Origin: Bacteroidetes bacterium GWC2_46_850
GTDB taxonomy: Bacteria; Bacteroidota; Bacteroidia; Bacteroidales; Dysgonomonadaceae
Direction of reading: 5' to 3'
Length of the DNA stretch: 64,000 nucleotides
Assembly: GCA_001768325.1 (NCBI GenBank)
Contig: MENQ01000007.1
Location: 310,001 to 374,000, forward strand
Shown: in pieces, positions 5,687 through 57,695 of the stretch
Numbering within the stretch: position 1 is the stretch's first letter
Layout of the letters: every line of letters starts with the position of its first letter
Made by a program: the position numbers and the translations under genes
Notes under the pieces: generated by a model
Databases searched by the model: none
What the model saw: only the letters and a program-made list of their open reading frames with translations
What the model was told of the DNA's origin: nothing

Positions 5687-5765
5687 CTTTACAATTAAAC
5701 TTTACTGAAGCCTAAACTGTGCAGCCGCGATTACAGAGAAGTTGTGTTGTAATCAATCACAGCTC

Positions 5766-32100: not shown

Positions 32101-32218
32101 GTTTAATGCTTCCACGCTTTGAATCTTCGGGCTGCAGCGTTTCATTCAATGCTTCCACGCTTTGAATCTTCCGGCTACAGAGTCCCGTTCAATTTATCCA
32201 CCCTTTGAATCTTTCCGT
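32101..32218. repeat. Threefold 43-bp repeat derived from the 3' end of fetA
   Basis: AATGCTTCCACGCTTTGAATC starts at 32105 and 32148, and its diverged counterpart (AATTTATCCACCCTTTGAATC) at 32191. The period is exactly 43 bp. The third copy is the coding end of fetA (residues about IQRVDKLNGTL, stop at 32175-32177); the other two lie in the 121-bp fetA-fetB gap. 43 is not a multiple of three, so the frame shifts between copies. Confidence 0.8.
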
Positions 32219-32825
32219 CGAACAGCGTGATTGTGACATCGGCAAACCTCTCCGCCACGCTCATGGCATGGGTGACCATGATCAGGGTACCCTTGCGTTT
32301 CCTCGTGTAATCCACCACCATGCCGATGATGAAGTCCTCCGTCTCATCGTCCAACGCCGAGGATGGTTCATCCAGCAGAAGAGTCTCCGGATGCAACAGC
32401 AACACCCTGGCCAGCGCCACACGCTGTTTTTCGCCACCCGAGAGATCCTTTGTATCCGCCTCCAGGGTCAGCTTCAGTCCCACCTGTTGCAGCAGGTCCG
32501 TATAGACCTCCTCGCTGGCAGCCTCCCGTTCGGTGAAGCGCAACGTCTTGTTGAAGTTCTCCCGGATGGTGCCGCTGAACATGACCGGCTGCTGGGGCAG
32601 CATCATCACCTCCCGGCGCAGTGCAATCGGGTTGTATGTATCAATCTCCTTCCCCTTGTAGAGAATGGTGCCGCTGTCGGCCGAGATCAGGTTATTCAGC
32701 AGTTTCAGCAATGTCGTCTTGCCACCGCCGCTCTTTCCCACAATGCAGGTCACCTGCTGCGCCTTCAACTCCAGCTCGTCCACTGTCAGGATATCCCTGA
32801 ATTTTACATTTTTAAGCTCAAACAT
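32175..32825 (-). CDS. fetA: FetA-type ABC transporter ATP-binding protein
   Basis: The 216-residue ATPase has Walker A (GKSGGGKTT, near residue 29), the signature LSGGEKQRVALAR near residue 129 and Walker B LLLDEPSSALD. It powers the FetB permease next door. A strong divergent promoter lies about 60 bp upstream. Confidence 0.93.
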   Translation of the reverse strand: MFELKNVKFRDILTVDELELKAQQVTCIVGKSGGGKTTLLKLLNNLISADSGTILYKGKEIDTYNPIALRREVMMLPQQPVMFSGTIRENFNKTLRFTEREAASEEVYTDLLQQVGLKLTLEADTKDLSGGEKQRVALARVLLLHPETLLLDEPSSALDDETEDFIIGMVVDYTRKRKGTLIMVTHAMSVAERFADVTITLFDGKIQRVDKLNGTL

Positions 32826-32950: not shown

Positions 32951-33139
32951 GACCAAAGCTGATCGCTGATCGCTGATTGCTAAAAAACAGACCGCTGCCC
33001 CTGTCAAGCTTCCACAACCAAAGCTGACAGCTGATAACTGATAGCTGACCGCTGATTCCTGATTGCTGATTCCTGATTCCTGACAGCTGAAAGCTGATTC
33101 CTGATTCCTGACCCCTGACTTCTGACCCCTGACCCCTAA
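32951..33139. repeat. Long 7-bp array in the GH92 leader
   Basis: Two runs of CTGANNN are separated by the boundary motif (CCGCTGCCCCTGTCAAGC, TTCCACAACCAAAG). The second run has about fifteen heptamers (CTGACAG, CTGATAG, CTGACCG, CTGATTC, CTGACCC and so on) and ends CTAAAA just 5 bp before the ATG. The 318-bp gap holds this and the divergent promoters only. Confidence 0.85.
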
Positions 33140-35410: not shown

Positions 35411-35570
35411 TTTTCGTGATATTTCTCTCGTCTGCATTTATTCTTTGACCTGTCATCGTCTCGGTTTCTAAAAGAGAAGAAGTCGCTTCGCAACCTTCTT
35501 TTTTTTACGAAACCTTTGTCGGACAGGTTCCCAAAGACTAACTGAGGACTTCGGGAAACATGCACGAAAA
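35411..35570 (-). repeat. Palindromic element, copy A
   Basis: Diverged copy in reverse orientation. Terminal arms are TTTTCGTG and CACGAAAA, inner arms GGTTTC and GAAACC, with the conserved block TCTTTGACCTGTC opposite GGACAGGTTCCCAAAG. It lies between the GH92 gene and an ATPase gene. The terminal arms differ from the other copies yet still pair with each other. Confidence 0.85.
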
Positions 35571-36975: not shown

Positions 36976-37095
36976 ACCGCTGCATTAAACAACATCCCAC
37001 AACTGGAGCTGAATCTTGAACCGCTGTTTTCAACAACATTCCACTACCGAAGCTGATTCCTGATTCCTGATTCCTGATTCCTGATTCCTGAAAGC
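36976..37095. repeat. Boundary motifs and 7-bp units between two genes
   Basis: Two boundary motifs (CCGCTGCATTAAACAACATC; CAACATTCCACTACCGAAG) are followed by CTGATTC CTGATTC CTGATTC CTGATTC CTGAAAG, abutting the stop of the DUF4625 gene at 37100. Confidence 0.75.
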
Positions 37096-37850: not shown

Positions 37851-37889
37851 TGGGTTGAATATGTTTTCCGAGGCTTCAAGACCTCGAAG

Positions 37890-38046
37890 TTTTCCGGTGT
37901 GCAGCGAAGTCCTTCATTATTCTTTGGGCACCTGTCCGGCGAAGGTTTCGCAAAAAGAGAAGTAAGCGAAGCGACTTCTTCTCTTTTAGAAACCGAGACG
38001 ACGACAGGTCAAAGAATAAGGCCAGACGAGAAGCACACCGGGAAAA
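37890..38046 (+). repeat. Palindromic element, copy B
   Basis: 157 bp. Outer arms TTTTCCGGTGTGC and GCACACCGGGAAAA, middle arms TTATTCTTTG and CAAAGAATAA then ACCTGTC and GACAGGT, inner arms GGTTTC and GAAACC, AAAAGAGAAG and CTTCTCTTTT, with an AAGCGAAGCG loop. Confidence 0.9.
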
Positions 38047-38048
38047 CT

Positions 38049-38188
38049 GATGTGTTGATGTGATGATGTGATGATGTGATGATGTGCCAATGTACAAATC
38101 ACTTGCAAACCGCTGACACGAACAACATCCCACTACCCAAGCTGAAAGCTGACGGCTGAAGGCTGAAAGCTGAAAGCTGACCTCTAAA
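38049..38188. repeat. 8-bp array, boundary motif and 7-bp array up to the TonB receptor stop
   Basis: GATGTGTT, then GATGTGAT three times, GATGTGCC and AATGTAC (38049-38095); then AACCGCTGACACGAACAACA and CCCACTACCCAAG; then six CTGANNN units and CTCTAAAA ending at the stop of the receptor gene (38184). It shows the full module order next to palindromic copy B. Confidence 0.85.
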
Positions 38189-45252: not shown

Positions 45253-45357
45253 CATTATTCTTTGGGTACCTGTCCGGCGAAGGTTTCGTAAAAAGAGAAG
45301 TGAAGCGGAGCGACTTCTTCTCTTTTAGAAACCGAGGCGATGACAGGTCAAAGAATG
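45253..45357 (+). repeat. Palindromic element, copy C (core only)
   Basis: The core from CATTATTCTTTGGGTACCTG to GACAGGTCAAAGAATG is present but the outer arms are missing. It is flanked directly by TTTTTAGG toward fcl and by CTGAATCCTGATTCCTA toward the gmd stop, the minimal form of the composite gap. Confidence 0.85.
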
Positions 45358-46566: not shown

Positions 46567-46724
46567 GTTTCCCGATGTTCTGCGAAGTCCTCAATTATTC
46601 TTTGGGCACCTGTCCGGCGAAGGTTTCGTAAAAAGAGAAGTGAGCGAAGCTACTTCTTCTCTTTTAGAAACCGAGACGACGACAGGTCGAAGAATAAGTG
46701 CAGACAAGGAGAACACCGGGAAAA
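46567..46724 (+). repeat. Palindromic element, copy D
   Basis: 158 bp with outer arms TTTCCCGATGTTC and GAACACCGGGAAA. The same core as copy B (TTATTCTTTGGGCACCTGTC opposite GACAGGTCGAAGAATAA). Lies between the gmd promoter and the 3' end of the DUF4998 gene, with 7-bp units (46507-46550) on its left. Confidence 0.9.
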
Positions 46725-54649: not shown

Positions 54650-54862
54650 GATGTACAGATGTGGTAATCTAAGGATGTAATGATTGAAAGATGTGACGAT
54701 AAGGAGATTGATTGATGTGGTGATGTGCAGATTGAAAGACGCGATGATTGGTCGATATGATGTGAGGATTTGCTAAAAGCTGATCGCTGACCACTATTTC
54801 CCAAACCGCTATCCCTGACAACATTCAACCACAGAAGCTGATAGCTGATAGCTAACACCTTA
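54650..54862. repeat. 8-bp array, boundary motif and 7-bp array before the ATPase gene
   Basis: About fourteen degenerate octamers (GATGTACA, GATGTGGT, GATGTAAT, GATGTGAC and so on, 54650-54774), then GCTGATCGCTGACC, then AACCGCTATCCCTGACAACA and TTCAACCACAGAAG, then CTGATAG CTGATAG CTAACAC. Polarity is toward the ATPase gene at 54957. Confidence 0.8.
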
Positions 54863-54920
54863 ATCCCTATATTTATCTATGGAAAAGTCTGAAATAATTT
54901 TATTTTTCCACAGATAAGTG

Positions 54921-54928
54921 TATATTTG
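54921..54928 (+). promoter_or_regulatory. -7 box of the second ATPase gene
   Basis: TATATTTG fits TAnnTTTG and lies 28 bp upstream of the chosen start. It overlaps a longer in-frame reading, which argues against that longer start. Confidence 0.5.
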
Positions 54929-54956
54929 CATGAGTTTGATTCAATGTCTATATCGT

Positions 54957-56246
54957 ATGAAAAGAAAAATATATGACTACCTGTTACAGTGGAAGGAAAA
55001 AGCAGACAGAAAACCTCTGATTGTCAATGGTGCACGTCAGGTGGGGAAAACTTATATTTTGCAAGAGTTTGGCCAGCAGGAGTATGACAATTACGTTATT
55101 GTAAACCTCGAGACTGACAAAGCGTTGGTAGAGAAATTTGAAGAGAGTATAACCCCCAGGTCACTTATTCAGTACCTCGAATCAGCCCATTCGCAGAGGA
55201 TTATCCCCGGCAAAACACTTATTGTAATTGATGAAATACAAGCTTCGGAGAGGGCATTGACATCGTTGAAGTATTTCTATGAACAAGCTCCCGAATTTCA
55301 CGTTGTGGCTGCGGGTTCATTGCTTGGTGTGGCGATAAATCGCAAACAATTTTCTTTTCCTGTGGGCAAGGTCGATGAAATTACACTGTTTCCAATGGAT
55401 TTCGAGGAGTTTTTATGGGCAAACAATCGATCCATGCTGGCACACACCATCCGGGAACACTATCTCTCCAACGAGCCTTTGGATGTACATTCGATAGCAG
55501 TAGATTTATATAACAAGTACCTTATTGTCGGCGGCATGCCCGCCGCGGTGAAGGAGTTTATAGCCACCGATAGTTTTGTGGCGATTGCCGATATGCAAAA
55601 CCGTATTTTGAATGAATATATTGCGGATATGGCAAAGTATGCCGAGCCTGCAACCAGCATTAAAATACGCGCGTGTTACGAATCAATTCCGGCTCAACTG
55701 GCGAAGGAGAATCGCAAGTTCCAATATAGCGTTGTCCAGCGAGGAGGCAGCTCAACAATTTTCGGCGAGTCTATTGAGTGGCTTAAATATGCGGGGGTTA
55801 TACTCAAATGTCAGAAGACAACACAAGGGACAATGCCTGTTAAGGTGTATGTCGATCTGAGCGATTTTAAACTTTACATGGCTGACGTGGGCATGCTTAC
55901 CATGCAGTCTGGCATAGCCACTCAAGCGATATTATCTCCACTCGACATAGAGAACCCGTTCTTGGGCGCAATTGCTGAAAATTATGTAGCACAGGCGCTT
56001 GCAAACAATTTGATAACACTTCTTTATTGGAAGAACGACAATACGGCAGAGGTTGATTTTGTTATACAGAAAGATACCGATGTAATTCCCATCGAGGTAA
56101 AAAGTGGCCTGCGTATACGTTCCAAGAGCTTGCGCATTTTCATGGAGAAATACAATTGCCCTTATGGTATTCGCATATCAAAGAAGAACTTCGGATTTGA
56201 AAACAGCATAAAGTCAGTACCGCTTTATGCAGCATTCTGTATATAA
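54957..56246 (+). CDS. AAA-type ATPase with DUF4143 domain, second copy
   Basis: Start placed at ATG 54957-54959 (MKRKIYDYLLQWKEKADRK), giving 429 residues. Walker A is GARQVGKTYIL near residue 24 and Walker B LIVIDEIQASE near residue 92, followed by VAAGSLLGVAI. The C-terminal DUF4143 region has the nuclease-like DNTAEVDFVIQKDTDVIPIEVKSG. It is only distantly similar to the ATPase at 35790. Low G+C and lone context suggest an accessory gene; function unknown. Confidence 0.9.
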   Translation: MKRKIYDYLLQWKEKADRKPLIVNGARQVGKTYILQEFGQQEYDNYVIVNLETDKALVEKFEESITPRSLIQYLESAHSQRIIPGKTLIVIDEIQASERALTSLKYFYEQAPEFHVVAAGSLLGVAINRKQFSFPVGKVDEITLFPMDFEEFLWANNRSMLAHTIREHYLSNEPLDVHSIAVDLYNKYLIVGGMPAAVKEFIATDSFVAIADMQNRILNEYIADMAKYAEPATSIKIRACYESIPAQLAKENRKFQYSVVQRGGSSTIFGESIEWLKYAGVILKCQKTTQGTMPVKVYVDLSDFKLYMADVGMLTMQSGIATQAILSPLDIENPFLGAIAENYVAQALANNLITLLYWKNDNTAEVDFVIQKDTDVIPIEVKSGLRIRSKSLRIFMEKYNCPYGIRISKKNFGFENSIKSVPLYAAFCI

Positions 56247-56285
56247 TTTCTCAATATGAGAAGTACCTGCTTACTTCAGTCTTAG

Positions 56286-56444
56286 CCTTCCCGGCGTTCT
56301 TCTCTTCTGCACTTATTCTTTGACCTGTCGTCGTCTTGGTTTCTAAAAGAGAAGAAGTCGCTTCGCTTACTTCTCTTTTTACGAAACCTTCGCCGGACAG
56401 GTGCCCAAAGAATAATTGAGGACTTCTCAGAACACGCGGGAAAA
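56286..56444 (-). repeat. Palindromic element, copy E
   Basis: 159 bp, reverse orientation. Core blocks TTATTCTTTGACCTGTC and GGACAGGTGCCCAAAGAATAA are intact, as is the GGTTTCTAAAAGAGAAGAAG inner arm. Outer arms are CCTTCCCGGCGTTCT and AGAACACGCGGGAAAA. Lies between the ATPase and pflA genes. Confidence 0.9.
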
Positions 56445-56446
56445 CT

Positions 56447-56618
56447 GATTTACTGATTTACTGATTTATTGATGTGAAGATTTACTGATTTGAAGATACA
56501 TTGATGTGCTGATTTGCGAAAAGCTGAATCCTGATTGCTTTTCTCCAAACCGCTGTCTCTGAAAACATTCATCCACAGAAGCTGACAGCTGACCGCTGAT
56601 CGCTGACACCTGAATCCT
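56447..56618. repeat. 8-bp array, boundary motif and 7-bp array up to the pflA stop
   Basis: Nine octamers (GATTTACT, GATTTACT, GATTTATT, GATGTGAA and so on, 56447-56518), then AAACCGCTGTCTCTGAAAAC and ATTCATCCACAGAAG, then CTGACAG CTGACCG CTGATCG CTGACAC CTGAATC CTA, ending at the pflA stop (56617). Confidence 0.85.
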
Positions 56619-57324
56619 ATTTCCCCAGAATCTCCTGGGCCCTCTTCAGTCGATCTGCAGAGAGCGGCGGTGTATCTTTCAACGCGTAATCCATCCCCAT
56701 CTGTTCATATTTGCGTGCACCCATGGTATGATACGGCAGCAGTTCTACCTTTTCGATGCACTTGTAGGGCCGCAGGAAGTCCGCCAGCCGCTGCAGCAGC
56801 ACATCGTCATCCGTCCATCCCGGCACCAGGACGTGGCGTATCCAGACGGGAATCTGTTTTTCCTCCAGATAGTCGAGGCAGCGCAGCGTATTATCCTGTC
56901 TGGCACCGGTCAGCGCCTTATGCTGTACCGGGTCAATTGATTTGATGTCGAGCAGCACCAGGTCGGCCGCCTCCAGCGTCTCCCGCACGGCCGGCGTAAA
57001 GATGGCCCCCGACGTATCCAGCGCCGTGTGGATACCTGCCTCCCGGCAGCGCAAGAAGAACTCCTTCACGAACTCTGCCTGCATGAGTGGCTCGCCCCCC
57101 GTAACAGTCACCCCACCCCGGGCAATGAAGTTCTTGTAGCGCAACACCTCCGCCAGCAGCTCCTCCGGCGATAGCTGGTACTGTCCCCTGTGGTTCCTGT
57201 CCCAGCTGTCCGGATTGTGACAATAGAGGCAACGCAGCGGGCAGCCCTGCATGAATACCACGAAACGTATTCCCGGGCCGTCCACCGTACCAAAACTTTC
57301 GAGAGAATGTATGTTTCCAGTCAT
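56617..57324 (-). CDS. pflA: Pyruvate formate-lyase activating enzyme
   Basis: The 235-residue radical SAM enzyme has the cluster ligands Cys28, Cys32 and Cys35 in QGCPLRCLYCHNPD, followed by the GGEPLMQ motif near residue 78. It installs the glycyl radical on PflB by cleaving S-adenosylmethionine. It lies downstream of pflB on the same strand but a 379-bp gap of nested repeats, including palindromic copy F, separates them. Confidence 0.95.
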   Translation of the reverse strand: MTGNIHSLESFGTVDGPGIRFVVFMQGCPLRCLYCHNPDSWDRNHRGQYQLSPEELLAEVLRYKNFIARGGVTVTGGEPLMQAEFVKEFFLRCREAGIHTALDTSGAIFTPAVRETLEAADLVLLDIKSIDPVQHKALTGARQDNTLRCLDYLEEKQIPVWIRHVLVPGWTDDDVLLQRLADFLRPYKCIEKVELLPYHTMGARKYEQMGMDYALKDTPPLSADRLKRAQEILGK

Positions 57325-57421: not shown

Positions 57422-57580
57422 TTTTCCCGAATGTGCGTCGAAGTCCTTCATTATTCGTTGGGCACCTGTCCGGCGAAGGTTTCGTAAAAAGAGAAGTAAG
57501 CGAAGCGACTTCTTCTCTTTTAGAAACCAAGACGATGACAGGTCAAGGAATAAGGGCAGACGAGAAGCACATCGGGAAAA
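57422..57580 (+). repeat. Palindromic element, copy F
   Basis: 159 bp. Outer arms TTTTCCCGAATGTGC and GCACATCGGGAAAA, core as in copy B with CGTTGGGCACCTGTC opposite GACAGGTCAAGGAATAA. Nested inside the opposed arrays of the pflB-pflA gap. Confidence 0.9.
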
Positions 57581-57582
57581 TT

Positions 57583-57695
57583 GATTTTATGATTTATTGA
57601 TGTGATGATTTACTGAAAGTAACTCCCAAACCGCTGACTTTACCAACATTCAATTACCCAAGCTGACAGCTGAACCCTGAAAGCTGACAGCTAAA
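57583..57695. repeat. 8-bp array, boundary motif and 7-bp array up to the pflB stop
   Basis: GATTTTAT GATTTATT GATGTGAT GATTTACT (57583-57614), then AAACCGCTGACTTTACCAAC and ATTCAATTACCCAAG, then CTGACAG CTGAACC CTGAAAG CTGACAG CTAAAAA, 8 bp from the pflB stop. Confidence 0.85.

Follow-up and report, generated by a model that had tools for sequence, protein, structure and literature searches.

ERIC and the NEMIS/Correia elements are imperfect palindromes of 100-160 bp that lie between genes and occur in several copies. REP and REPIN elements, as described in the accessible parts of PMC3733652 and PMC6006769, are composed of units of 20-40 bp with a GTAG or GTGG foot and are associated with a Y1 enzyme. 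The BrickBuilt MITE of Porphyromonas gingivalis is described, in the part of PMC4596501 available to us, as a short, non-coding, intergenic, multi-copy element with inverted-repeat ends and a minisatellite. We have analyzed the palindromic repeats found in a 64,000-nucleotide stretch of the genome of Bacteroidetes bacterium GWC2_46_850 (hereafter, the window). Our results indicate that these repeats are probably type-1 members of a MITE family centered on a palindromic rod, about 130 nt in length, that is conserved together with its bulges.

The initial annotation had reported six copies of the element. All six were re-found at the same places and on the same strands, and blastn returned the same set: copy A (35411-35570, -), copy B (37890-38046, +), which served as the reference copy, copy C (45253-45357, +), a core-only rod with its outer arms missing, copy D (46567-46724, +), copy E (56286-56444, -) and copy F (57422-57580, +), which lies between pflB and pflA. 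An alignment with genome G056 enters copy A from its GH92 side, the site of copy B is filled in G056 with both flanks aligned, and the site of copy F is filled in G057. The genes next to the copies are unremarkable (GH92, TonB receptors, a SusD-like protein, gmd, an epimerase, pflB, pflA and two AAA_14/DUF4143 genes), and a Pfam scan of 17 proteins did not identify a transposase. It was also correct that two pairs of copies bracket gmd and pflA, yet the flanking copies are present or absent independently in congeners. Three further places were found by blastn in the 3.75-Mb genome: one on contig C29, a half copy on C12 and a decayed one on C23. Six of these nine places fall within 22 kb (35411-57580), a clustering for which we have no explanation. 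Elsewhere, four full or partial copies lie within 13 kb of a syntenic G056 contig (L133), and contig C28 of G100 holds three partial type-1 matches in 500 bp.

Other features of the window were noted in the same survey. By our reading, six of ten type-1 copies have an 8-base minisatellite, TGATGTGN, directly at one end, and it occupies 38050-38101, 56448-56523 and 57576-57619 in the window. This minisatellite may belong to the type-1 element itself, as that of BrickBuilt does, or may be the target of the element. A 7-base array (GCTGATTCCTGA...) recurs in the window spacers on both strands, for example at 33016-33136, 37052-37095 and 56523-56624, as does a module of about 40 bp with CAACATYCCACTACC; 43-bp repeats, three in tandem, are found at 32102-32230. 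An S4-Bacteroidia ribosomal protein leader (Rfam RF03139) lies at 5722-5754 (-). Both window DUF4143 genes adjoin a rod, and G061 (L131, 3711-3815) lacks a block of about 1.9 kb (54668-56588) in which copy E and an AAA_14/DUF4143 gene lie.

Copy B folds into a single rod, and this fold bore out the nested stems proposed in the initial annotation. Its outer left (37890-37903) and outer right (38033-38046) arms are possible terminal repeats. Inside them, again on the + strand, TTATTCTTTG (37917-37926) pairs with CAAAGAATAA (38010-38019), ACCTGTC (37930-37936) with GACAGGT (38003-38009), GGTTTC (37944-37949) with GAAACC (37989-37994), and AAAAGAGAAG (37953-37962) with CTTCTCTTTT (37978-37987); these are helices 2, 3, 5 and 6 of the pair count given below. 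The rod has an unpaired GGC bulge on its 5′ side (37927-37929), which is GGG or GGGG in other types, and GCGAAGC at its apex (37966-37972). The latter is a GNA-loop sequence and, according to the accessible part of PMC4686876, a GNA loop with two G-C pairs forms an extraordinarily stable DNA mini-hairpin whichever base N is. Folded as RNA, positions 37885-38050 reach -70.3 kcal/mol (dinucleotide-shuffled mean -42.9, z -6.7), and folded as DNA they reach -43 (dinucleotide-shuffled mean -20.2, z -7.2), with 0 of 200 shuffles as good in either case. Each of the six copies forms one long rod with fixed bulges. The outer arms do pair as had been claimed, but by our reading of the five full window copies, true double changes occur at no more than two arm positions.

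The window rods are part of a family that comprises types 1, 2 and 3 and is found within the same genus and taxonomic family. The types are alike in length, bulges and GCG-N-AGC apex and differ in their stem letters; their homology is indicated by an alignment (A2) that is nearly ungapped. A covariance-model search had been proposed at the outset, and our model, R1, identified 15 places at E ≤ 1 in the genome that carries the window, 13 of them at E ≤ 1e-9. All three types are represented, with type 2 at C23:62418, C24:196521 and C11:29517 and type 3 at C7:117450 and C7:217688. In the taxonomic family, blastn with the element matched at least 18 of 101 genomes, and R1 was positive in at least 15 of 393 genomes across the order, with eight candidates scored per genome, so that these counts are lower bounds. 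Matches to the type-2 element alone were present in 28 of 39 genomes of the genus, as counted from the search listing, and searches of plasmid and phage collections gave no match. Some type-2 and type-3 rods (L017, L034, L294, L338 and the G076 pflB-pflA spacer, L086) contain a nested hairpin of about 80 nt. By eye, this hairpin is flanked by GTGAA twice in L338, as against one GTGAA in L330, which suggests that it is another mobile palindrome of small size.

Covariation was counted in A2, a MAFFT alignment of 25 of the 36 copies then available. Excluded were copy C (core only), half and decayed copies, copies near a run of N or without part of an arm, one apparent duplicate, one copy that has an assembly gap and two that contain a nested hairpin. 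MAFFT placed gaps poorly near the apex, which left R1 with just 18 pairs; counting was performed on a structure of 45 pairs, obtained by averaging the folds of single sequences of A2. Against shuffles that do not keep relatedness, and with a structure derived from the same sequences, 83.5% of 1105 cells were paired (shuffled 73.2%), both sides had changed at 25 of 45 pairs (shuffled 17.1) and 133 cells carried double changes (shuffled 52.5), with 0 of 500 shuffles as high for any of the three. As a control, partners were slid by 1-3 columns, which gave 6-15 double-change pairs and 38-47% of cells paired. Further pair types showed no excess in A2 (46 vs. 46.9 shuffled). The strong covariation arises between types and not within the window copies. 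The claim that paired change points to selection for structure, whether in DNA or in RNA, is supported across types, with copying from arm to arm as an alternative. More tentatively, we suggest that the rod is kept because its fold, and not its sequence, matters.

Mobility was studied in type 2, for which 40 stretches were fetched. A two-ended scripted search over 77 loci, with one copy kept per locus and repeated copies, recognized by their flanks, removed, gave 34 distinct copies, which were thus picked by having both ends. Their terminal inverted repeats are about 17 bp long (68 ends compared). An exact 5-bp target duplication was found at 15 of the 34 copies, whereas 2000 flank shuffles gave 0.67 on average and never more than 4. 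The count rises to 20 of 34 when a one-base shift is allowed, five match at 4 of 5 bases, and 19 of the 34 have no exact 5-bp repeat. Exact direct repeats of 3, 4, 6, 7 and 8 bp numbered 1, 2, 5, 0 and 0, respectively. The target duplications are mostly A/T-rich. Three type-2 copies in G061 show 0 differences over 215 bp, and each is located in different flanks.

A search with the end pattern revealed three inverted pairs in G078 at equal spacing. These bound a 1.6-kb insertion sequence (IS) that is present in three copies and has perfect 17-bp ends and a 482-aa transposase. The transposase scores above the cut-off of NCBIfam NF049925 'IS4 family' (389.6 vs. 250 bits); in Pfam, DDE_5 is over its cut-off and DDE_Tnp_1 is just under. 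Two of the three IS copies have a direct repeat (AATGTA; TAGTA) and the third has none. The consensus of the 68 type-2 ends, ATTCAAGTTTCGCATGTT, agrees with one IS end, ATTCAAGTTTCGCAAGTT, at 17 of 18 bases and with the other at 16 of 18. Relatives of the transposase occur in six of the 39 genus genomes, G078 included, and those of G054 have ends of similar make. None was detected at E ≤ 1e-20 in the genome that carries the window, and drafts may drop repeated IS copies. We saw no likeness between the rod interior and the G078 IS beyond the ends, which indicates that the element is not a plain deletion derivative. Taken together, these results indicate that type 2 is a MITE, with terminal repeats, a fixed-length 5-bp duplication and ends in common with an IS4-family element. 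Two of the classes initially left open fared differently: MITE gains support through these sister copies, and REPIN does not.

Type 1 is short, non-coding, multi-copy and dispersed over its nine blastn places in the genome, and from its homology to type 2 we infer that the window copies are MITEs as well. The type-1 arms, roughly TCARTTTTCCCG, resemble IS4-type ends when read by eye; they pair, but their end point is uncertain. No target duplication was found at the 10 testable type-1 copies (11 were taken, one of which had ends that were not found). For type 3, inspection by eye placed a rod between two copies of TAATA in the gmd-epimerase spacer of G079, and the same spacer of G062 is empty with one TAATA. 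The second rod in the pflB-pflA spacer of G067 stands, also by eye, between two copies of AATAT, a reading weakened by the A/T-palindromic arms at this site.

We propose that an IS4-type transposase, supplied in trans, moves these elements; insertion of type 2 duplicates 5 bp of the target, mostly A/T-rich. If DNA that is single-stranded or supercoiled extruded the rod as a hairpin, the ends of the element would come to lie together, and the paired changes in the stems, the constant bulges and the variable middle base of the apex would fit such a hairpin. Alternatively, the hairpin may form in read-through RNA. Palindromy would also let copies invert in place, lose their centers and end as intergenic hairpin spacers. 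Type 1 probably arose in the same way, with copies that are older or altered at their ends and a transposase that is no longer found in the genome.

The fate of single copies was followed at several sites. At the C23 site, the type-2 element lies between the same genes but in opposite orientation in G056, G057 and G059 versus G000, with 94.5-95.7% identity on the other strand, and G061 has an altered form. A paired double change in the outer arms at this site separates G056 from G057 and G059. Among 16 further species with both anchors, 14 have a gap of 15-113 nt, too short for the element, and the other two have 1.1-1.2 kb between the anchors; six loci have one anchor only. In the gmd-epimerase spacer, two congeners (G056 and G081) have a full-length rod where G000 has the core only, at 45253 of the window; copy C is a shortened form of a full-length rod. 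In the pflB-pflA spacer, rods of types 1, 2 and others were seen by eye in 12 of 19 genomes with both genes, a figure that is not a chance test because the spacer was chosen for its window copy. Two rods are present in G067 and G076 and part of a rod in G077, G068 has a short hairpin of type-2 outer-arm letters, G088 has another hairpin, and no hairpin was seen by eye in five of the 19. An apparent second in-place inversion, located upstream of gmd in G056, was withdrawn, since one flank of that copy matches the site of copy E and not of copy D, and its other flank is without a clear match; the C23 site is left as the sole case. The copy in question (L133:1-440) has a copy-E-like flank, another gene between it and gmd, and an assembly gap at its center; the block may have moved or undergone rearrangement.

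The covariation could also have arisen by copying from arm to arm, that is, by template switching within the palindrome, and not by selection. Both the in-place inversion and the paired double change in the type-2 outer arms at the C23 site are in line with such copying. However, bulges and mismatched loops are found at fixed places across types, and indiscriminate correction should erase them. We therefore regard arm-to-arm copying as a possible but doubtful source of the paired changes. The separate idea that complementary outer arms came solely from palindromic targets was dropped once the type-2 ends proved common to copies.

A further reading is that the rod is a structured RNA, kept for its function in transcripts as an intercistronic stabilizer, an RNase III site or a terminator. 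The covariation of the stems is consistent with this, as is the pflB-pflA spacer, where rods of different types occupy 12 of the 19 genomes and a hairpin only is present in one more. The same spacer nevertheless lacks a visible hairpin in five genomes, and the transposon ends and target duplications of the type-2 copies also speak against an RNA. At the gathering threshold, Rfam gave one match in the window, far from the rod, and over 13 loci at E ≤ 1 it gave three sub-gathering matches (two miRNA families), all at L017:1270-1334, at or beyond the rod end. The rod itself thus has no Rfam match. Over 60 loci with both neighbors, some of them near-duplicates, mechanical ORF calls placed the neighbors in the orientations -- (24), +- (14), ++ (14) and -+ (8), with no fixed arrangement. 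Together with the inversion of the type-2 copy at the C23 site, this mixed orientation disfavors a strand-specific regulatory RNA, one form of an option that the initial annotation had left open; an RNA form in general still stands as an alternative. On balance, we consider a structured RNA unlikely and retain the MITE reading.

The apex sequence of the rod is found well beyond the order. At least 116 stretches in the genome collection contain the exact pattern TGTTTGAGCGNAGCGAGTT, compared with about 7 expected by chance (estimated as bases x 2 / 4^18), and the matches listed come, judged by their record titles, from Bacteroidota, Proteobacteria, Bacillota, Nitrospirota, Patescibacteria and others. 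Among the matches listed, 84 of the 112 with enough flank center a stem of at least 35 pairs, to which the apex itself can supply just a few, compared with 12 of 224 stretches drawn at random from those loci. Also among the matches listed, a pyrimidine-first hairpin lies downstream in 43 of 111 cases versus upstream in 6 of 111, and the free apex base N is A in 56, T in 34, C in 29 and G in 5. Such a free N fits a DNA hairpin form. Some rods outside the order are followed by a second hairpin, and the one in Haemophilus ends in GTAG-like letters. When neighbors within 1.5 kb of the apex matches were Pfam-scanned (146 of 187, mostly the shorter ones), no family matched more than three of them among the 25 most frequent of 170 families, a sample in which rare transposases could be hidden. 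IMG/VR holds 80 viral contigs (L382-L461) with the apex 19-mer, representing 40 distinct 80-mers, and 22 of 79 testable viral matches center a long stem. We can speculate, while thinking it rather improbable, that the rod is a structural chassis that predates, and extends beyond, any single transposase, with its GNA apex and fixed bulges in several phyla, used by different mobilizing systems (IS4-type ends; a second hairpin) and selected as folded DNA. The conserved bulged rod and its spread around the same 19-nt apex in several phyla are new here, and no description of the rod or apex sequence appeared in titles or abstracts among the matches listed from the openly licensed literature.

Another alternative is a REP/REPIN-type element mobilized by a Y1 (RAYT) transposase. 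Such an element would likewise be palindromic, intergenic and multi-copy, and the second hairpin after some rods outside the order, with its GTAG-like end in Haemophilus, points in the same direction. In addition, 'atypical secondary structures' flank subclass 2.6 Bacteroidetes TnpA_Y1 genes, according to the accessible part of Quentin et al. (PMC6006769). However, there is no Y1_Tnp match in the genome that carries the window. Y1 matches occur in 15 of 25 rod-bearing genomes, and R1, a model that may miss rods of other types at Y1 loci, gave E values of 0.15 and 2.7 only over 30 Y1 loci (of 45 places). Twelve strong folds near Y1 genes look by eye like other palindromes. The 5-bp duplications of type 2 would also be unexpected for single-strand transposition by Y1 enzymes. 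A REP/REPIN origin of types 1-3 is thus disfavored, and we consider it highly improbable. Palindromes of other kinds lie near the Y1 genes of some relatives (L261-L290), for example a repeated GGGCTGAAGCCCGG in G368, and are candidate REPs in their own right. Finally, integron attC sites, which combine RYYYAAC and GTTRRRY core sites with an integrase, are argued against by the mixed orientation of the copies in the window.

With a MITE family as their class, these otherwise anonymous intergenic repeats also acquire ends, a rule for their targets and a candidate transposase, and their mobility becomes directly testable. If the fold is selected, the family would be a natural setting in which to test whether cells form long DNA hairpins and use them in transposition, and how such elements turn into hairpins between the genes of an operon, as between pflB and pflA.

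In conclusion, the rods can be placed among the known systems as follows. Like the REP/REPIN elements with RAYT, they are palindromic extragenic repeats, and some REPs are tied to transposases as far as the available parts of PMC3733652 and PMC6006769 describe them; unlike these, the rods showed no Y1 link in the genomes tested. They share with the BrickBuilt MITE, within the portion of PMC4596501 at hand, all of the general features given above, and several type-1 rods abut an 8-mer minisatellite where BrickBuilt contains one. The rods are unlike BrickBuilt, so described, in the conserved, bulged and covarying stems of their interior, which are common to several types, and in type-2 ends that match an identified IS4-family element. 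The likeness to IS4-family IS of the NF049925 group lies in the end of the G078 copy, with its agreement at 17 of 18 bases, and in the short, mostly A/T-rich target duplications that both produce; in contrast to such an IS, the rod element has no coding sequence and has a different interior beyond the ends. With ERIC and NEMIS/Correia, as these are commonly described, the rods have size, palindromy and intergenic place in common, and they are set apart from that description by their ends, their target duplications and their candidate transposase.
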